Source of the DNA: Gavia stellata | Lineage: Eukaryota; Chordata; Aves; Gaviiformes; Gaviidae | Reading direction: 5' to 3' | Length of the DNA stretch: 64,000 nucleotides | Assembly: GCF_030936135.1 (NCBI RefSeq) | Contig: NC_082618.1 | Location: 7,785,034-7,849,033, forward strand | In this document: one piece after another, positions 570-51,815 of the stretch | Layout: each line of letters starts with the position of its first letter | Position numbering within the stretch: position 1 is the stretch's first letter | Program-made: the position numbers and the translations under genes | The notes under the pieces: generated by a model | The model's input: the letters and a program-made list of their open reading frames with translations, nothing else | What the model was told of the DNA's origin: nothing | Databases searched by the model: none

Positions 570-577
570 TATAAAAG
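570..577 (+). promoter_or_regulatory. CRYBA1: TATA box of CRYBA1
   Basis: TATAAAAG stands about 30 bases before the expected start of exon 1 (about 600) and 36 bases before the first ATG at 606. TATA boxes are usual in crystallin promoters. The spacing implies a 5' leader of only about 6 bases before the first AUG, a layout that favours leaky scanning to the second AUG. Confidence 0.8.
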
Positions 578-599: not shown

Positions 600-637
600 C
601 ATTACATGGGTGAAGCAGCAGTAACCGCCTGAGCTAG
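600..637 (+). other. CRYBA1: CRYBA1 exon 1, with a disrupted betaA3 start frame
   Basis: The 5' edge is inferred from the TATA position; the 3' edge is the donor at 638 (ag|gtgagt). The ATG at 606 opens a frame of eight codons that ends at TGA 630-632. Read in the frame that joins exon 2, the end of exon 1 gives PPEL and continues into exon 2 as DTVPAAK and then M of betaA1. This resembles the mammalian betaA3 arm (ELETLPTTK before M), so the exon itself is right. In that frame, however, a TAA at 622-624 precedes PPEL and no ATG is in frame. One A fewer at 623-624 would restore a 17-residue extension and the family length of 215. Confidence 0.75.
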
Positions 638-1420
638 GTGAGTCCTGAGACCGATTCATACCTCCCCCACCTCGCCCCGGTTCGTGCTTGCTGCCGCCGG
701 CCGGCCAGGCAGACACCCTTCCTCCTGCCCAGTGGCAAATGACACCCAGAGGACCATCGCCGTTCCCCGCGGCAAAAGACAGGCTCACACGTCCCCGCTG
801 GCAGCCAGGGTGGCTGAGAGCCCCTCTACCCTGGGGCACCCCACTCCTGGCACCCACCTGGCCCCGGCCCCCGGCACGGCACACCGGTTGGCATCTTCCA
901 CCATTAGCTGGGGCTATCCATGGGAGCCCACCGTGACTCCCAAGGGAGGCACAGCCGGGGTGCTGGGGCAGGTAGAGGGGAGCAGGCCGGTCTGCTGGAT
1001 GCTGCCGGGTACCGGGCAGCCCATGTCTCCCACTGCAGCTCCCCACTCCAGCTCAGGGGTGTTTTTCCTAGCGATGGCCTGGCCTCAGGGAAGTATAACG
1101 GGGAGCCGGGCACTGTGTCCCAGCGGGCACGCAGGCTCCATGCCACGGCTGGGAGGAGGGAAGGGGCACCGCGGCGGTGAGAAGGGAGCACCCTGCTTTG
1201 GACGTGTCCCGGAGCCCCTCCGCCGTGCCCTCCACCCCATCCTGTGGCTAGCAAGAGGGTTTTGCTGTGCCTGGCATGGCTTGTCCTCAGCAGCAGGGCA
1301 GCTGCCTTCCAACAGGCACCATGGGCGGCGGGCACAGAGTCGTCCCCCAGCCCCAAGAGCAGGCAGCAGGGATGCACAGGGGCATGCTGCAGTGCAAACA
1401 GCTTTTCCTTCCTTCTCCAG

Positions 1421-1485
1421 ACACCGTTCCAGCAGCAAAGATGGCTCAGACAAACCCTCTGCCTGTCCCCATGGGCCCGTGGAAG
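1421..1485 (+). CDS. CRYBA1: CRYBA1 exon 2 (betaA1 start codon at 1441)
   Basis: Acceptor cttctccag ends at 1420 and the donor gtatgt starts at 1486. Bases 1421-1440 belong to the betaA3 extension (TVPAAK after a split D codon). From 1441 the exon encodes [15 protein letters not shown]. It ends in phase 0. Confidence 0.93.
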
Positions 1486-4400
1486 GTATGTCCTCGCACC
1501 CCCTGTATCTCGCCTTTCCCGGTGTGCAGGTGGGGGACAGGGAGAGGGGCAAAGCCAGTCTTCCAGGGCCAGGAAAGCTGCACAGCAGGCAGTGAGGTGG
1601 GGGGAGCACAGGAAGCAAGGCACCCCTGTCCTCTGCCCATGGGAACTTGCCTCTTGGCTGCTCAAACACCTTCCGGGTGTTTTTCATAAGCCTCTCTGCA
1701 GCACCCTGGCCCCGCCATGCCCTGCTCTTACCAGTCGTCCTGTGCCAGGCAGTCACAGCAGTCCCCAAAAGCCACACGCTGTTATTTGCCCTCTGTCAGT
1801 GCAGGCAGGCTGGCAGGGCGGGCAGGCACGAGGGCTGCAAAGGGGGCGGTGGGCACGACAGAGCAAGGTGGGGAGCAGCCCTGAGGGGTCTGGCAACAGC
1901 TCCGGAGACACAGTTTGAGCAGGGAGCCGAGAGGGAGAAGAGCACGTGCGCAAGTGGGGCGCACCCCGCCAAAGCCTGGAGCTGTCGTGGGAGAGGAGAG
2001 CATCAGCTGCAGCCCCCCGGGGAATTCCCCTCGTCCTTTCCCCCGTTAATCCTCTTTGCCCTAGAGCATTCGGAGCAGAGGCCAGGAGAACCGCCAACCA
2101 CAGCCCTGCCACCCGCCCGTCCCAGAACGGCTCCGCTCCTCTCTCCGGACGGCACCGCTGCCCCGGGAACTGATCTCCGCAGGGGTGAGCAGGAGAGCGG
2201 AGCGGGGGCCGGCATTTGGCTCCCCTGACACCAAGGCAGGGCGCCGCGGGGCCACCAGTGCAGGGATGCGCAGAGGCATGCGGGGCTGCGTCCCAGCCTA
2301 GAGGGGTGCCCAGTGCAGCCTCCGCTGGCTCTTCCCCGGATGGAGCGCGATCCTCGGTCTCGAAGAGGCGCTGAATCGCCTGGGGCTGCTGCCAGGCAGT
2401 TCCCAACTCGGCAGCTCACTCTCCGTTCCAGATCACCGTGTACGACCAAGAAAACTTCCAGGGCAAGAGGATGGAGTTCACGTCGGCCTGTCCAAACATC
2501 ATGGAATGTGGCTTCGACAACATTCGCTCCGTGAAGGTGGAGTGTGGCGCGTGAGTACCCGGCAGCCAGTGGTGGGGACGCTTTCCTGGGCGGGCTGGCG
2601 GGGCAAGGGGTGCCTGAGCGTGGAGCGAGGCCAGCTGTCGTCGCTGTGTTTAGCTGGAGCCAAGCACCGCAGCCAGGGGAAGCCAGGCACAGCGGATCTC
2701 ACCCTGCCAGGGTAGAGCAGCCAACCCTGGGCAGCACTGACACCAACGCAGGGCCAGAGGACAGCAGCAGCGCCTTTGGCATCATCTGAAACTGCCTCCC
2801 GCAGCCTGGGAGCAGCCAGGTTTGGAGCTCCCCAGTGCCCCACAGGGACGCTGCCCAAGGGTGCAGCAAAGATCGGTGCTCGCTGAGCGGCTTTTGAGCT
2901 CAGCCTGGTCCCCATCCGCCTGTGTAGCTCCATGAAGCACCTTGCCTAGAGAACCATTTTTCTTGCCCCAGGGCCCAGCCCTGCTCTGCCCAGTGCTCTC
3001 CCCACACCATGCAGCTCCCCAGGGCCAGAGCAGAGCCTTCACGCAGCCTGCGCTGGGCTGCCTCAGTTGCTGATAGGTAGGGAGCAGAGCCCAGCTTCTC
3101 CCTGTGCGCAGGAATCTTCCCTGGCACAGGCAAGACATCTCCTGAGCTGCCCTGAGACGCTGTGTGTAAGGAGCGGTCCCCACGGCTAGCATCCCGCTGG
3201 GGCCGGGGAAGCAGACAAGATAGATTTGCACTGCTATATTTAGTATTTGTAATGCTAATGGGATTACAGCGGCATGCATGCTCACGCCGTAATCAGCTCA
3301 CTGCTCCAGTTGACGTGTTCCTAATCAGGCTGGTCACCTTTCATGGGAGGGGAGGCTGACTGCGGGACACGGGATCGGGACTGAGTTTGGGTCAGTGGCA
3401 AGAGGCCCTCGACCCCCCCGGCTCAGCATGCCCCTCAGCGCCCCGCGTACCCCGTAAGCAGGGGGTCTGTGGGCTGCACAGCCTCAGCCCTTCCAGCCCT
3501 CAGCCCAGCCTCTGCCTCCACGCTCAGCTGCGGCTGTCCTGTCCCCAGTCCCTGTAAGGGGACGTCCCCAGGAGAGGTCCCCACCCTGGGGACGGGCACT
3601 GGGCAACAGTGTGGGCAACACCAGGGCTTGCAAAATGTGTCCTGCAGGGTGGAGGCATCTCTCTCACCTCTCCTTGTTTGTTTTCAGCAGAGGGGGACCC
3701 AGAAAGGGGAAAGGCAACAGGCTCCTGCCCTGCCCAGAGCCAGATGGGTTCTGCCTGGTTTGAGTATTAGGAATTCAGGTCTTTCCAGCTCTGCCGGGTT
3801 GTAATTGGGAAACAAGTAAGAAATGAGGCCTTTGGGAGAGAAGGGCAGCTGGGGGTGTCCTGCGGCATCCCAACGTGATGCCGATCTGCGTAAATAACCA
3901 CAGAGCAGTTAGGGGAAAGGGAGCCACCCTCGCAGGCTGGGCCCCTTGAGGGAGGGACCCCATCAGCCGCCACAGCCAGGGGATGCCGGCGCTGCCATGC
4001 GGGCTGCCTCCCAGGCACCAGACGCGGTTACACATCCAGTACCGCTTCCTTTCCTCCCGGACTTGTGGGCAGAAGCCAGACCCCAACCTCCTCCTCGCAC
4101 CTACATCTGTGCCCCGGTGCCAGCCCCGAGCAGGAGGCCCAGAGCTGCTGCAGGAAGCCCTGGCAGCCCTTGCTCTGTTTTTGCAGCTGGGTCGGTTATG
4201 AGCACACCGGCTTCTGCGGGCAGCAGTTCATCCTGGAGAGGGGAGAGTACCCACGCTGGGACGCCTGGAGCGGCAGCAACGCCTACCACATTGAGCGCCT
4301 GATGTCCTTCCGCCCCGTCTGCTCCGCTGTGAGTGTCCTGGCTCCAACGGAGCTCTCGTGTCTCTGATCCCATTAAAATGTCGCAGGCAATAGCACCAGG

Positions 4401-5292
4401 CCAAGGGAGTGAGGTTAGGAAGGGCAAACACAGCCATGCCAGGGGCTCTGTGGGTGTCAGAGGCTCCTCAAGGTGGGCTCAGCTCTTCACCCCCACACCC
4501 AGCAGGATTTTCTCTTTCTGCCCTGTTTTCCAAAACTTTTAAGGGAACTTCTGGGCCAGCTGTACGTGCTCAGAGCTGGGGGACAGCCAGCCTGAGACGG
4601 TAGCCGTGGCATAGCTGCCACTGACACCTCCCAGGCCAACCCCTGCCCCATCCTGGCTGAGCACCTCCACACATCTGGGCTTTGGGAAAAGCAGGCTCCC
4701 CCACCCCAAAAAAAAACCAGCCCAGGGTCTGAACACCTCCCTCTCCAGGAAATGCTCCAAGCAATGCCACAGGGAGGGACAGCCATCACCCCACCATCCC
4801 CATCCACGCCAGGGAGAGAGCACTGCCTCCCTCTCACCCCCTGCTCTTCCCCCCCCAGAATCACAAGGAATCCAAGATCACCATCTTCGAGAAAGACAAC
4901 TTCATCGGCCGCCAGTGGGAGATAAGCGACGACTACCCCTCGCTGCAAGCCATGGGCTGGGCCAACAACGAAGTGGGCTCCATGAAGATCCAGTGTGGCG
5001 CGTGAGTGATGGGCAAAGGGCCACGAGCAGCAGAACACACCGCTGCCATCGCTGTGCTACCACAGCTGGAGGGGGGACACCCTGTAACCCCCTTGCTTAC
5101 CTCTTTTTCCCCCTTCGGCCGCCTGACGACTCCTTTTCTTCCAGCTGGGTTTGCTACCAGTACCCCGGGTACCGTGGCTACCAGTACATCCTGGAGTCCG
5201 ACCACCACGGAGGAGACTACAAGCACTGGAGAGAGTGGGGTTCGCACGCCCAGACCTCCCAGATCCAATCCATCCGGCGTGTCCAGCAGTAG
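1441..5292 (+). CDS. CRYBA1: Beta-crystallin A3/A1, betaA1 form (spliced: 1441-1485, 2432-2550, 4187-4328, 4859-5001, 5145-5292)
   Basis: A soluble structural protein of lens fibre cells that assembles with other beta-crystallins to give the lens its refractive index. The five coding exons total 597 nt, giving 198 residues plus stop, the usual betaA1 length. All junctions are GT-AG and keep frame. Residues 1-15 form the N-terminal arm; exons 3, 4, 5 and 6 each encode one Greek-key motif (about 16-55, 55-102, 103-149 and 150-198), the one-motif-per-exon plan of beta-crystallins. The sequence is nearly collinear with mammalian CRYBA1 (for example [20 protein letters not shown] and [20 protein letters not shown]). 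It has cysteines in VECGA and IQCGA where I recall serine in human. The ATG at 1441 has A at -3 and G at +4, a strong context. Confidence 0.97.
2432..2550 (+). CDS. CRYBA1: CRYBA1 exon 3, Greek-key motif 1
   Basis: 119 nt between the acceptor ccgttccag and the donor gtgagt at 2551. It encodes [16 protein letters not shown] through VKVECGA, with the aromatic and glycine positions of a Greek-key motif. Ends in phase 2. Confidence 0.97.
4187..4328 (+). CDS. CRYBA1: CRYBA1 exon 4, Greek-key motif 2
   Basis: 142 nt after the acceptor tttttgcag, with donor gtgagt at 4329. It encodes [20 protein letters not shown] and continues to FRPVCSA, completing the N-terminal domain. Ends in phase 0. Confidence 0.97.
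4859..5001 (+). CDS. CRYBA1: CRYBA1 exon 5, inter-domain link and Greek-key motif 3
   Basis: 143 nt after the acceptor ccccccag, with donor gtgagt at 5002. It begins with the connecting peptide NHKES, then [20 protein letters not shown], and ends with MKIQCGA. Ends in phase 2. Confidence 0.97.
5145..5292 (+). CDS. CRYBA1: CRYBA1 exon 6, Greek-key motif 4 and stop
   Basis: 148 coding nt after the acceptor ttcttccag. It encodes [20 protein letters not shown] and runs on to SIRRVQQ, then TAG at 5290-5292. The C-terminal RRVQQ matches the family end (RRIQQ in mammals, from memory). Confidence 0.97.
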
Positions 5293-21200: not shown

Positions 21201-24200
21201 TCCATAACCCCAGAGGCAGGGCAGATTTGACGATCAAACTATCGAGACTTTGCTCAAAAGCAAACAGATCAATCTGAAGAGGGAGAAGTTCACCCTCCTC
21301 TTGAAATCAAAACCAAACAATCTGAGGATCCAGCTGCCCGGGACACTCTAACAACTGACCCAGGCAAACCTGCACGCTCTCCTGAGCGGGGAGGAAGGGA
21401 AGGCAGCTTGTGAAAAATAAGCAAGCAAAACCGTTCCTTTCCTACTGCAGAGGAACTGGCTGGCTAGGAGTAGGACCTCAGGAAAACTGCCCAAGATAAA
21501 CGGAGAGAATGGTGTGGGAATTAACCTCTGCACTGCTGTCCTGCAAACGCACCCTGGCAGCTCTGTCTTCTAGACATTTTGCAGCACGCTGTGCCACAGG
21601 AGCTCACCCGCGGGATCATGGCCACGAAGAGGAGACAGCATTTTCCACCTGCATGGGGTGCTGTTCCTACCAATACCCCTCAACCCAACTCACCCCAACG
21701 GACTTGAGCACACACAGAAATGCAACACCCAACATCACAGAAGACTTACTAAGACCTGGACTGATCTGCTTTGTAAACCAGCAATAGCACCTGAAGAGTA
21801 AGTAGGAGAAAGACAAGCTCAAGCTGTTTGGAGCACTCCTATCACTGCATTAATGACAACACTGATTAGAAACATCCATCATCTTTCACCCCTAAGTAAC
21901 ACCTTGAAGTTGGCACAGATACAGCTTGAAAAATAAATCAGCACAGAGGAGCGGTGGGGCAGGAACCCGTTTCCCCAGGGCATCACACGGGTGCTTGCTC
22001 TGGATGCTCAAAGCGAGAGCATTCACATGCAGAGGCAAGAAAAGAGCAGAAAACCGTATTTTAAAGAGCGCTTTAGGTGTCCATTGCTGCCATTGAATGT
22101 AATTAACTCCTGTGCTTAGAACTAAACGCAGCCAGACCTCGAAGTTAACACCTCCTTAAGAGGACATGGGAAGGGAGTGTTCTTTATTTTCCTGTCGTTA
22201 CTATTGTTTTACTGGGGTCTGTCTTTCACACAGCTAGTGAGAAAGGGAGAGCCTGATGAGTCTTGCTGCGGCTGTACAAAGCTGCTTTTCTACATGAAAG
22301 TTCAGGCTGACCAAAACAAAGAGAGACAAACTGAAGCGTTAGAAAAATTTGCGAGCTGTTAAGAAGAGGATTGCCTAGGACTTCCTTCTACACCATGCGA
22401 TGCTTGCTGGCACCCCCATTTTGTGATGAGAAACTGGGATTTAGGCTGCAGGCAGACAAGAAATGAGAACGGAAACCTTGCTTTAAGACTGGAATAGATT
22501 GAGCAGCAGGTAGAGGACCAAGACCCAGATAAAATCAATTGATGAACGCTGTTCTCAAGAATACTAGAGCTTAAAACGTTAACATTGTGAGAGTGTTATG
22601 ACCTGGAAAAAATATTTGGAGTTATTATTCTTAAATGACTAGGCTTACTATTACTAAAGGAAGCCATCTAAGTTTCCGTATCCTATACAAAGAGATTGCA
22701 AACAGGTAATTGAAGAACTTTGCAGTGGATCAAAACGCAGCAAATTTGCCAACGCCATCCAAATACCAACCCCTCTGCAGAGGGGAGCGAGATGTTATCC
22801 ACATAGGTATGTGGAACAGCAAACAAGAATTGGATGATCACCTTTTTCCCTTCAGGTAGGGGGATGCAGGGAGAGGGACGGGGGCGAATAAAAAAGGAAC
22901 TGCCCCTGTGTTTCTCAGGGGTAAGTACGTAACACCGTGGTACAAGGGAACATGCCGCCGGGCTCCCGCTAACACTGAGCCAGGACCAAAAGCCAAGAAC
23001 TGCCACAAGCCCTCAGAGCTTCTGGGGTGAGGCTAAAGCAGAAAGCAAGCCGTCCCACAGGCTTCCCTCTGCTCCCAGTTTAAAGCGTCTGTATCATGTT
23101 TGAGTCATTTCAGTCTCAAAAAAAAAAACCCAGGAAAAAAAAGGAGCTGGATTACAAAGGACTCCATGAAAGCAATAAAATCATCTGAGAGATTTGGCCT
23201 ACAAAGACAACAAGAGAATTCAATCTGCAGCTTACAGAAGAGTTGATAAGCAAAGATTTGTCTTGCTGTTGCCACAGTACTCAAGAAGGGCAGGGGAAAA
23301 GCGCGTGTGCAGGATCCGCTTAAAAAAAGTGAAATAAAATAAGCACACCATGAAAAGCTGTAGGAATATTTCTTTTCTTCCTTCAAAGCCATGATTTCAT
23401 GGCCTGATCTGCCCAGGGGAGAAGCTGCAACACTTTGGTGGCAGAGGTGCGAGCACGGACTATGAAGCCTTTTTGGTAACAGAATATCACCTGGTAAAGC
23501 TGGAACAGAGCCGGTGATTCTACACGTTTAACTCCTTCCAATGCTGAGAAGCTCAGGAGGACCTGCTTGTTCCATAGGAATTAAAATGTAAACTACACTA
23601 GCTAACTATTATCCCTACGAACATCACTTACGCTGGTCCTTAGGAATGGGGAAACAAATACCTCTTAACATTAATTAAACAACCGTTTAAATAACTTTCC
23701 CAAACCGTTATTGCCATTAGAGATAGGAAAGCAAAAGTCTCATTTTCAAAACAATCAGAACTGCTGTAAGGAATACATCATGTTAGAATATAGCACTTAA
23801 AAAAGTATTTAAAAAAAAAAAGATAAGAGAATGCCTTAGGCAGCAAGTTAAGCCATTACCTTTAGTGTGATACATAATAGCAGCCCTCAGGTCAAAAGAA
23901 CCCCAGCTATCTTTCCTTTCTAGGCCTCTCTGGTACCTCTGTTCTTTGGCGGAGGCTAGCAAATTGTTCGTAGGAGAGGCCAGAGGATTCTCTATTTCAT
24001 AGTCTTTTGAAAGAAACACTAAAGCACCTTGGCTACCGGTGTCTGCCTTTTGTAGGTCACCTGTGTGATGCGACTCCAAAGCTAAGACACCACCCTCAAC
24101 AGCAGTCCCAGGCTTAAGAATAGCACTAAGAATTTGGGGGCTAGTCCGTTTATCCAGCTCATAAGCCTTAGGAAACACAGGTTGTTCAGTTCCTGAGGGA

Positions 24201-27200
24201 ATGATTTCAGCACACTGTGAAACCAAAGCGGCAGGATATTCCCCTTGAAATGTCACTTCCATTAACTGATTATCCGCAGATTTCCCCACAACAGTTTCAG
24301 GGCCAGCGCTGGGCTCGTTTATGAAAGACAAGCCCCACTGATTCTGGAAGATATCTCCCAGGTTCTGCTGATTCGTCTGCGATGGGAAATCGACTTGCGC
24401 TGCACCCAGAAGCACAGTTTGCATATTTGAAGGGTAGATAAAAAGGCTAGATTTCTTTTGTTCGAGAGCTGTTGAAGTTGTACTGATGTCCTGGGGTACT
24501 GACTCGGAGGAGGTTGACGGTACAGTACTAGCAGCAGTTGAGAGCAGTGGCTGGGTCCCTGGAGAGTACACGCTTCCGTCAGTCCCCGCTAGAATTGGCC
24601 CATTCGAGAAGCTAGCAGAAGTAACAGATTTCATAGCAGACATGGGGACTTGGGACAGTCGACTTGATGTTTGGGCCGGCGTTTCCCCGGCAGATGACGA
24701 CGATGACGAAGACGACGTGGATGGCGTTTGAGCTGCTTTGTTGAGGTTTTCTTTAACTTTACTTGCATAACTTATTTTGGGAACAATTTTAGCACTGCTA
24801 TTGTCCACTGGAAAAACTGGGGGTGGTTTAAATAAGGTCCATGAGTCCTCTTTAGATGTAGCCGAGGCGTGCTTCCCTTTGGGCCGGTCATCGAACTTCT
24901 TGCTGCTAATCCCAGGTTTGGCATCAGAGTTTTTTCGCTGTACATCTCCAATCCCAGGCTTTCCCCGGCCTGCTCCACTAGCCCCAGCCTCGTATTTCCA
25001 AACAGGCTTAGTATTTTCAATTCGGTTCCCCTTTTGTTCACTATAATCAGGCTTGAAACTCTCAAGTTCCTGTTTTAAGGTTGGTGCACTAACCTCCTGT
25101 TGCATTATTTTGTCCTGTACTAGATTCAAGTTCTCACAACCCTTGGCACTGTTGCGCCTGCCTTTCCTTTTTTTAGGCGTAGTATATCCACTCTCGGAGC
25201 CACTACCATCGTTATCGGCCCCTTTGCCTACGTAGCCATTCGTGATATAGCTAGAGTTATTGGTTACCACCCCGTTTGGAATAGACACTCCCTCTGGCTT
25301 GTCTGAGGACTGGCTTTCTCTAAGTTTATTTTCGTAGGACTTCTCATTCTTTTTGTCCATGCTATTTTTCTGGATGAAGTTCTTGGTTTTGATTCCAGCC
25401 TTCCCCAAAGCACTGGCCTTCACAGTCTGCTTTGGGGTCACGTTAGTGTCTACGAGCTGCTGGCTGCCATTGGGTACCCTGGATCCTGGGGTGGTGGGTT
25501 CATCAGAGCACAGGCCCTTTAATGACACTTCTCTTTCTCCTGCGTTACCATTTAGCTCTCCGTAGCCTAGAAGAAAGCCAAAAACAACAAAAGGCAAGAA
25601 TTAGAATGTGAAATGTTAAACTTCTGATTGCAGAAAGCTGTAATCAGCCGCAGACATTTTAAAATAGGAAAACATCTAGTCTCTGATGTACAAAAGCCTA
25701 TGCTTATTGCTGGAAACCACAGCTAGAAGGGTTAAGCAGAAAGTACCAGCAGCTACTGACTCTCACGTACAACCGGGTGATGTATAGATAACAAAACAAA
25801 GCAGAAGTACATACAGATACTGTGTAAGGAAAATATACTGTACTAAAGATCACTGGCAAGCTGGAGAGCTATTTCATCAGCTACTATTTCCAGGTCACAC
25901 AGAGGAAAAAAAAAAAAATAATTCCCAGGGAGTTTCAAGACAGAAAGAACCGCTGCCTTTGCTACAAGATTTGTTGAGGTTCAGAATCCATACTGTGAAC
26001 AATGGCCAACTCCTATCATCTCCATCAGCTCCCAGGCCTGCAACACCAGCAGCCCTCCTTCCCACCCTGTTCCCAAACGCCATCGCTAGTAAAAGGGGGA
26101 AAAAAAAAGAAAAAAGCCATTTTCCAAAAGGACACGTCCAAGTCAAGTTGGAAGTTGCATCTACTCGCTTCATTTCAAAATAGCAACCAACACCTCCCTA
26201 CACGTGCTCTTTAGCTTTGGAAAGGTGATAAAACTGGGAAGAAACGCATCCCTGCAAGCGCCCTTCCACCATCCGTGGCAACTGGCCTCCTGCCCACTGA
26301 GAAACTTGGGTATTTCAGAGTCCCTGGGAGACCCAACACTCGCCAAGGGCTCCAGCTCATCCAACCCCGAGATCATGCTGTACACTCAGCCTTCCTTTTT
26401 GCTTCTCAAGTTCACTTCTAGGCCTTACGGTTCTGACGTGAATCTTGGGAGTGCAATTCAAGCGCAACTGAAGTGGAGCTGGAAGCCCAGGACAGTCTTG
26501 ACCCAACCACCTCACCTGCCTCAACCTTTTTTATATTTTTTTTTTAATCTCTGGCCAGAGACCTATTGCTTTTGCAGACCCTGGCTATAACGCCCCAAGA
26601 GAAGCCTTGAAGCCCCACTGAGGGATGGGAAGAGCACGCTGTACCCAGCTCAGCAAATACACCGCAGCTGCGGACGGAGGAGAGGGACTCCCTCCTACTG
26701 CACCCGCTCCTCCAGGAAGAGTGCTAGCCTCGCTCCTCCTCCGGCTCATCCGTCCTCCTTCCCGAGGGTGGAAAGCCTTAAATCTCCCGCAACAACTGAC
26801 CCACCTAAGGCTTCATCCGCAGCCGCGGTGCTGCCAAGTCAGCACTGCGCACGGAGTCCCCCAAGAACGAGAGCGGGCAAAACTCCAGCTTGAAAAAGAA
26901 TGTTTTTGTTGTTGCCGATGTTGTTGAAATTAACTGCTATACTAAAAATCATTGTTATCCTCACATCCTGGAGCCTCAGATGTCTGGCAGATGTAACCGC
27001 TCAAGTTCTGTGCAAGTCGGGAACACAAGAATCCTTGTAGGAATCTTTACAGGAATTCCACAACTGAGTTTGCCGAGGGGGATCAAAAAGGATTTTACTA
27101 GATGCAAGTATCTGTAACCACCACAACTTCCACTGCAACTTTCAAATACGCTGTTAAGAATATTAACCGTGAATACTTCATCCCAGAGAAACCTGAGAGG

Positions 27201-49222: not shown

Positions 49223-49380
49223 GCCTGCCCCAAACCCACCGTCCTCCGCCCCGCCTGCCCCAAACCCACCGTCCTCCGCCCCGCCTGCCCCAAACCCACC
49301 CTCCTCCGCCCCGCCTGCCCCAAACCCACCCTCCTCCGCCCCGCCTGCCCCAAACCCACCCTCCTCCGCCACGCCTGCCC
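49223..49380 (+). repeat. 30-bp tandem minisatellite
   Basis: Five consecutive copies of a 30-base unit begin at 49223, 49253, 49283, 49313 and 49343, followed by an 8-base start of a sixth at 49373. The unit reads gcctgccccaaacccaccgt then cctccgcccc. Copies 1 and 2 have ccgtcc where 3, 4 and 5 have ccctcc, and copy 5 ends in ccac. There are no spacers. It lies at the upstream edge of the TAOK1 CpG island. Confidence 0.95.
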
Positions 49381-49934
49381 CCACCAAGCTCCCACCTGCC
49401 TCCAGGCCTCTCCCCTGCCCTCATCCTTCACCTCCCCACCCGTGCCCGAGCCCCGCCTGCCGCGTCCCCAAGCCCTCCTTCCCCCCGCTAAGCCTCTCCA
49501 CGCCCTTCCTCAGTTTCCCCATTCCCCGTCGAGCCCTCCACCCCCCGCAGCCCCGCCGGGCTCTTACGGCCTCAGCAGCACCCCCCCACCATCTTCTCCC
49601 TCAGGCCCCTCTCACCCACCCGCCTCACAGTCCGCGGGGCTCCCGCAACCCCTCTGCCCCCCACGCCCCTCTCTACACCCCCCCGGCTCCCTCCTCTCCC
49701 TCAGCGCCCCCCGCATTGCCCTGGCTCTCCCCCCCAAACCGCCCCACTCGCCCCCTCCTCACACAGCCCCTCACGGCCCAGCCGCCCCCTCACCCCGCCG
49801 CGCCACCACCGCCCCTCCGCCGCCGCCCCCTCACGGCCCCGCCGCCCCCGGCCCCGCCCTCCTCTCCCCCCCCCCCCCGCCGCCCCCCGCCCCTCCCGCC
49901 GGCCGCGGTGGTGGGGGGGGAGAGGGCGGCGAAG

Positions 49935-49944
49935 TCTCGCGAGA
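49935..49944. promoter_or_regulatory. Palindromic CGCG element TCTCGCGAGA
   Basis: A perfect ten-base palindrome, the known CGCG-box of TATA-less CpG-island promoters, bound by BANP in a methylation-sensitive way (established). It usually lies close upstream of the start site, suggesting transcription starts around 49950-50010. Confidence 0.8.
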
Positions 49945-49959
49945 GGGGCGGGCGGGGGC

Positions 49960-50466
49960 CGCTGGCTGCGGGCAGCGCGGAGCGGCGGCGACGGAGCAGC
50001 CGGAGCCCGGGCGGCGCTGAGGGGAGGCGGCAGGCAGGCAGCCATCCCGGCGCGGCGCGGCCCGGCCCGGCCGAGGGACCCGCTCCGCCGCGGCAGGCAC
50101 GGCCGGCGCCGCCCGCCCTCCCGCACGCCGTGCCTCCGCGGCGCGGCGCGGCCTGGCCGCGGCTCGGCGAGCGGGGCCCAGGCGGCGGCGGCGGCCGTGG
50201 TGGTGGTGGTGGCGGCGGCGGCTGGGCGCTCCGCCGCGCCTGCCCTGCCATCTTAGGTGCCGTGCCCCGCCGCCTTTGTGCCCGCCGCGCCCGGGCACCC
50301 GCGGGGGCCGGGCCCGACGCCCCTCCAGGGGCGCCTCCCCCCGCGGGGCCGCCGCCCCTTGCCCCGCTCCTCCTCCTCCTCCTCCTCCTCCTCCTCCTCC
50401 TCCTCCTCCTCCTCCTCCTCCTCCGCGGGGGGCCGACCGGCGCTCCCAGCCCGGCTGCGGCGGAGG
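49960..50466 (+). other. TAOK1: Predicted non-coding exon 1 of TAOK1
   Basis: Left edge inferred from the TCTCGCGAGA element; right edge is the donor gaggg with gtaagg (gt at 50467-50468). The TAOK1 start codon lies in a later exon in mammals, and no frame here resembles the TAOK1 N terminus, so this would be 5' UTR. It contains a long TCC repeat. TAOK1 is a STE20-family kinase acting on p38/JNK and Hippo pathways and on the cytoskeleton. Confidence 0.5.
50367..50424 (+). repeat. (TCC)n trinucleotide repeat, about 19 units
   Basis: An uninterrupted 58-base CTC/TCC run near the 3' end of the predicted TAOK1 exon 1. The homopurine-homopyrimidine mirror-type sequence can form triplex DNA and is likely length-variable. 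Confidence 0.95.
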
Positions 50467-50541
50467 GTAAGGCGGGCATCGCGGCGGGGGGCTCGGCCGG
50501 GGCGGGGGCGCCCCCGGGAGGGGGGAGGGAGGGGAGGGAGC

Positions 50542-50558
50542 GGGGGGGGGGGGGGGGG
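50542..50558 (+). repeat. Poly(G) run of 17
   Basis: Seventeen G in a row, preceded by gggggagggaggggagggag, just inside the intron after the predicted TAOK1 exon 1. Many G-runs make it a strong G-quadruplex candidate. Exact length is unreliable in most sequencing data. Confidence 0.85.
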
Positions 50559-50910
50559 CGGCCCGGTGGGGCCGGCGCCTCCCCCGCCGCGCTCTGCGGC
50601 AGTGCCGCAGGACTCGGGGCTGCCGCCTCGGCCCCGGCGGCGGGCGCTCAGCACCGGCGGGGGCGCGGGAGGCGAAATGGCGCTTCCCGCCGAGGGGCGG
50701 CCGCCGCCGGCGGGGTGTTCCCCGCGGCCGCCGCTGTCAGGGGCCGCCAGAGGCCTAGGGCTGGGGCAGGGCTGCCGGCTCCCACCGGCCAGGCGTGCCC
50801 GGCGCTTCGGGCCCTTTTTGTCTGCGCCGCTCCGGTGGGCTTCGTCGGCCGAGCCCGGAGCCCCGAGGGGCTGGGGTCCCTCGGCCACCGGCGCGGATTC
50901 CTGCCCCTTT

Positions 50911-50956
50911 TTTTCCCCCCTTCCCCCCCCCCCCCTTTTTTTTTTTTTCCTTCCCT
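50911..50956 (+). repeat. Polypyrimidine T/C tract
   Basis: Runs of T and C alternate (T, C, T, T/C) over about 45 bases at the downstream edge of the CpG island. Low complexity, no coding value. Confidence 0.85.
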
Positions 50957-51815
50957 GCCCCTCGCTCCTCCCCAAGTGGTGAGTTTTCAGTGTAAATACC
51001 ATTTTGTTCGGTGCTGGTATGGGATTTGGATGAAAGTGACCTATTTTAAAGACCTTTTATTGCCTCCCCTCAGCAATGCATGTGGCGGCCGATTCCGTTA
51101 GCCAAATAGCGTTTCCCAACCATTTTAATTTGTCAGATTAAAACATCCTCACGGAGGCTAGATTTCTGTAACCCGCGTGTGGGTATGTCTTTAGAAATAT
51201 CCTTCAGCCTGCTTTGCTGCAAGCATCTTCGGAGCATTAGAGTTCACCTTTTGTCACTGTGAAAGCAGAAATAAATATAAAGGCGATACCTGGGCGCCTG
51301 TAACATGCAGTTGTACCATTGTGTTGGGCGCGGTACAAGAAATGGGGGGGGGCACGGACCAGGGATTAAAATGGTTGTTGTCAAATGTAGATCTTTACGT
51401 GTCTTAGGAAAAAATGACAGAACGGTATTAGCCTTGAGGACTTCCATTTATTTTCTTAGAAAAACGCTTCGTGTTTATCGTGCTTGTCTCTGCTGCTTAT
51501 CATGGTATGGAGTATTTCATTAGGTGGCATTTTAGTGGCTGAGTTGGTTAAATAGCAGTTGCATTAACTAGTTGAACAAATTGTGTCCTTCACCTTTGAC
51601 TATTGCATTTTGAGAGCCCTTACAGCAGCGTGTCTATGCATGCCAAGGACGGATTAATAAGATGTTACCTAAAGGTTTGGATGTTATTGATTCCTTACTA
51701 TTAATGCTATTTATAGTGCATTTGACATGGCTCGTTTTATGTATTTGGATAAAGGTTATCAGCTTGGAGTGCTTCAAATGAAATGTTCCCAAAACACCGC
51801 CCCTAACGTTTTTTT

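Follow-up and report, generated by a model that had tools for sequence, protein, structure and literature searches.

The question raised by this locus is whether CRYBA1 in Gavia stellata can still encode both of its proteins. Leaky scanning lets a single CRYBA1 mRNA specify two proteins, betaA1 and the longer betaA3 with its 17 additional residues, as stated in excerpts of two papers (PMC7904954, PMC8266859); the arrangement of one mRNA with two starts, which a preliminary description of this DNA took as its premise, is thus in print for mouse. Dual initiation of this kind requires that the first start codon (AUG1) and the second (AUG2) share a frame after splicing, and in the DNA analysed here they do not.

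The gene lies in a window of 64,000 nucleotides (the whole stretch that was analysed), located at C25:7785034-7849033 in an assembly of 1185 contigs totalling 1.32 Gb. The gene is read on the plus strand, AUG1 being at 606 and the stop codon at 5290-5292; all of its features given here are on that strand. A TATAAA box at 570..575 presumably belongs to CRYBA1, as it lies some 30 nt ahead of where transcription is expected to begin, and its position suggests a very short 5' leader of about 6 nt (600..605). Exon 1, counted from AUG1, is 32 nt long (606..637) and is followed by the donor GTGAGT at 638. Exon 2 (1421..1485) carries a remnant reading DTVPAAK and then AUG2 at 1441, and exons 3, 4, 5 and 6 occupy 2432..2550, 4187..4328, 4859..5001 and 5145..5292, the last ending in TAG. 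All five introns have GT/AG boundaries, the exons other than exon 1 and the splice sites are intact, and exons 2-6 form from AUG2 a single unbroken betaA1 frame of 198 amino acids in five clean exons. The earlier claim that betaA1 remains encoded is thus borne out.

The identity of the gene is supported by its product and by its surroundings. Two beta/gamma-crystallin domains of the acidic beta class span the betaA1 frame, Pfam Crystall (PF00030) matches the open frame at 4615-5289, which includes exon 6 (E 1.4e-11), and the closest solved chain is beta-crystallin A4 (E 7.5e-94, query residues 11-198). NUFIP2 and TAOK1, which we take to be the neighbours of CRYBA1 from the human gene order, are both present: NUFIP2 is on the minus strand at window positions 23786-25600, and coding matches to TAOK1, with the human protein as the query, are found from some 18 kb outside the window onward. 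Window positions 49223-51100, which are perhaps the CpG-island promoter of TAOK1, reach 87% GC. They contain 5.3 copies of a 30-bp unit in tandem and 19 uninterrupted copies of CTC, both inside an open frame of 637 amino acids without a Pfam match. CRYBA1 has one DNA match in the 1.32-Gb assembly and one exon set among 28 crystallin-type matches; no second copy was found among the best candidates, which are those that the search scores. Rfam gave no match at gathering scores anywhere in the window.

The break is confined to the beginning of the gene. From AUG1 the codons read ATG (606-608), GGT, GAA, GCA, GCA, GTA, ACC and GCC and are followed by TGA at 630-632, making an upstream open reading frame (606..632) that specifies MGEAAVTA in place of the former betaA3 start. 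The spliced distance between the two AUGs is 52 nt, 32 nt from exon 1 and 20 nt from exon 2 (1421-1440). Read in the betaA1 frame, exon 1 contains TAA at 622..624, just upstream of PPEL, and this triplet holds the apparent extra A. After it the frame continues as PPELDTVPAAK, apparently the latter portion of a betaA3 extension. Because the AUG1 frame stops at TGA and the betaA1 frame holds TAA 622-624, betaA3 cannot be made in frame from this exon 1; the same TAA excludes an in-frame extension from any upstream start in the exon, non-AUG starts included. These results reproduce most of the preliminary description: termination at 630 after eight codons, AUGs separated by 52 nt (32+20) and hence not by a multiple of three, a recognizable PPELDTVPAAK in the correct frame, and reduction of AUG1 to a small upstream open reading frame with loss of betaA3. 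The in-frame TAA is not among its points. It had also proposed that one A fewer at 623-624 would restore 17 residues and a total of 215. The arithmetic stands (17+198=215), but the exact site would follow from comparison with the chicken peptide, which we take to be MGEAAVPPELDTVPAAK; the sequence itself defines a net gain of one nucleotide somewhere between about 609 and 624, in the first half of the extension. Judged by the two frames, the surplus nucleotide is in the part of exon 1 that serves betaA3 only.

Taken literally, the sequence would allow CRYBA1 to yield betaA1 only. At AUG1, position -3 is U and the presumed leader measures about 6 nt; at AUG2, position -3 is A and position +4 is G. 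With the start site placed from the TATA box, these contexts fit a scheme of short leader, weak AUG1 and strong AUG2. A 1999 paper by Werten reportedly deals with the short leader, to go by its title. Ribosomes that initiate at AUG1 would terminate at TGA 630 after only 8 residues, 25 nt short of AUG2, and those that pass AUG1, presumably by leaky scanning in this animal also, would reach AUG2 and make normal betaA1. The retained AUG1 should keep wasting initiations rather than relaying them downstream.

In human CRYBA1, AUG2 is located in exon 2. The gene described here resembles the dual-start genes of mouse and human in being one gene with two AUGs, of which AUG2 has a strong context, and in its very short presumed leader. 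It differs from them in that the AUGs are 52 nt apart, compared with 51 nt for an extension of 17 residues, and only AUG2 yields a crystallin. Six exons are also given for human CRYBA1 in an excerpt of a published study (PMC3554465). An engineered mouse in which AUG1 was mutated to knock out betaA3 is, according to excerpts of its description (PMC7904954), likewise left with betaA1 only. Unlike that mouse, which lost AUG1 and in which astrocyte betaA1 rose, the bird sequence retains AUG1 as the start of an upstream open reading frame.

The surplus base could have arisen during assembly as an error of a single base in the consensus, such as the merging of two haplotypes may produce. We consider such an error the likeliest single origin of the base, at about even confidence. 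The other CRYBA1 exons, the splice sites and PPELDTVPAAK are all intact, as expected if the animal has no break, and a route to such errors is known: in the excerpted text of one report, an early long-read assembler introduced indels into a hummingbird assembly by merging haplotypes (PMC5632298). Artefacts of this kind in long-read bird assemblies are similar to the CRYBA1 case in that a single-nucleotide shift stands isolated in a gene that is otherwise intact; the CRYBA1 site differs in having no long homopolymer and only modest GC. The sequence of exon 1 poses little difficulty (56% GC, no run above 3 nt), which argues against an error. Excerpts of the mouse work describe betaA3 and betaA1 as functionally distinct outside the lens, which lowers the expectation of a silent loss (PMC7904954). 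On the reading of a consensus error, both isoforms are probably still made in the animal itself.

A yardstick for errors of this class was sought in the same assembly by counting broken open frames across gene families. The Cadherin_2 profile gave 52 matches; for 46 of them the open frame is 836 amino acids or longer, and the six short ones were fetched. The protocadherin cluster on contig C16 accounts for 43 of the matches (38 with frames of that length, 5 short), and its intact members comprise 115 kb of open frame. Three loci in the cluster (L031, L032 and L033; G000:C16, 20.79-20.90 Mb) each show one single-nucleotide frame switch relative to their intact neighbours, two through loss of a base and one through a gain at a run of seven A; the other three short loci (L034, L035 and L036) are only partial matches. 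The same class of defect as in CRYBA1 thus occurs elsewhere in the assembly, in 3 of 43 clustered matches, and favours an assembly error, although the switches may be either errors or true, recent pseudogenes. Within the same contig, at G000:C16:21038039-21143305, eleven protocadherin matches have one identical Cadherin_2 score, which suggests a recent array of near-identical first domains.

Controls outside the cluster point the other way. They comprise 47 frames (8 protocadherin, 7 Kv1, 13 IRK and 19 connexin) covering at most 76 kb, and none is broken, which argues against an assembly error and for a genuine insertion. For Kv1, 8 of 43 matches (7 genes) were counted, and 5 of the remaining 35 have a stop inside the match and were taken to be multi-exon channel genes. 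For IRK, 13 of 16 were counted, the three short ones being dropped, one of which contains a stop, on the assumption that they are interrupted by introns. For connexins, 19 of 22 were counted, and those dropped were two pieces in one 249-amino-acid frame and one partial match. The 95% upper limit on the break rate is ~4e-5 per nt, which is approximate because open-frame length overstates coding length and the count is blind to shifts near the C-terminus; an error in the 51 nt at issue would then be expected in at most about 0.2% of cases (0.002 expected). Our guess is that a true isoform loss in a given bird, or a segregating frameshift, is similarly improbable, so that the yardstick does not choose between an error and a real change. 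The neighbouring genes are also without a break and add to the case against an error: NUFIP2 has a frame of 605 amino acids, and 974 of the 1001 residues of the human TAOK1 query are covered in 19 matches, with the gaps and a single stop located at match ends that run into introns and with a stretch reading N among the 27 uncovered residues.

If the base is real, it would most plausibly be a young single-nucleotide insertion, recently fixed or still segregating, such that this bird or haplotype makes betaA1 only and AUG1 acts as the decoy start of an upstream open reading frame. This account is possible, at well short of even confidence. The easy local sequence favours it, as do the unbroken controls, and mice lacking AUG1, and with it betaA3 only, were bred, with a rise of betaA1 in astrocytes, according to excerpts of a paper whose authors also state that the two isoforms function interchangeably in the lens (PMC7904954). 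betaA3 therefore appears dispensable enough for animals to be bred without it, and its loss seems tolerable. The remnant of the extension looks uneroded, as would be expected after a recent change. A weak bound on the age of the change, roughly 44 My, is obtained from the absence of change in about 34 replacement sites relative to the presumed chicken peptide, at an assumed 2e-9 changes/site/year. Against a young insertion, no alternate-haplotype copy was found among the best candidates scored in the assembly, which holds one match.

A real insertion might also be circumvented, so that a modified betaA3 is produced either through a weak donor in exon 1 or from a transcript beginning in intron 1, and both frames work on paper. 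Splicing at a cryptic donor at 609..610 (TGG/GTGAAG) would fuse ATGG with exon 2, so that MDTVPAAK precedes betaA1 in the same frame. In intron 1, the betaA1 frame, read without splicing, contains no stop from 1252 up to AUG2 in exon 2 (window positions 1252-1440), a run of 63 codons with several in-frame ATGs. We regard rescue by either route as unlikely: the donor at 610 scores 3.53 and that at 638 scores 10.87 with an assumed frequency table, and the 63-codon intronic frame is no proof of a transcript and is likely open by chance.

An old loss common to all members of a bird lineage is the least probable account and a very unlikely one, since the broken frame itself is all that speaks for it and the correct-frame peptide equals the presumed chicken peptide with no further change, whereas a long-unused extension would have drifted. 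The apparently uneroded extension thus favours an error, or else a change that is recent or still segregating. In the choice offered by the preliminary description, between an assembly error and an isoform dropped by a lineage, the reference to a lineage is therefore the weakest point. Among the titles and starts of abstracts listed in literature searches, none reports betaA3 loss in a bird. Relaxed selection on CRYBA1 is reported for the night heron in an excerpted paper, which is a different observation (PMC9531477). Viral contigs contained no relatives of CRYBA1, and GTDB contigs gave one irrelevant match of 28% in Treponema; neither collection is meant to hold birds.

If the surplus base is an assembly error, which is the reading that we prefer, the locus illustrates how one wrong base in a consensus is enough to remove an isoform from an annotation. 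The finding has real value only if the base is genuine. The bird would then be a natural betaA3-null vertebrate, with a single-nucleotide insertion, an upstream open reading frame of eight codons and a lens that relies on betaA1 alone through leaky scanning past the decoy, a proposition that we advance tentatively and at somewhat less than even confidence. Nature would then offer an equivalent of the engineered betaA3-knockout mouse, and with it a single test of whether lens clarity, and the roles ascribed to the isoforms outside the lens, depend on the 17 additional residues.
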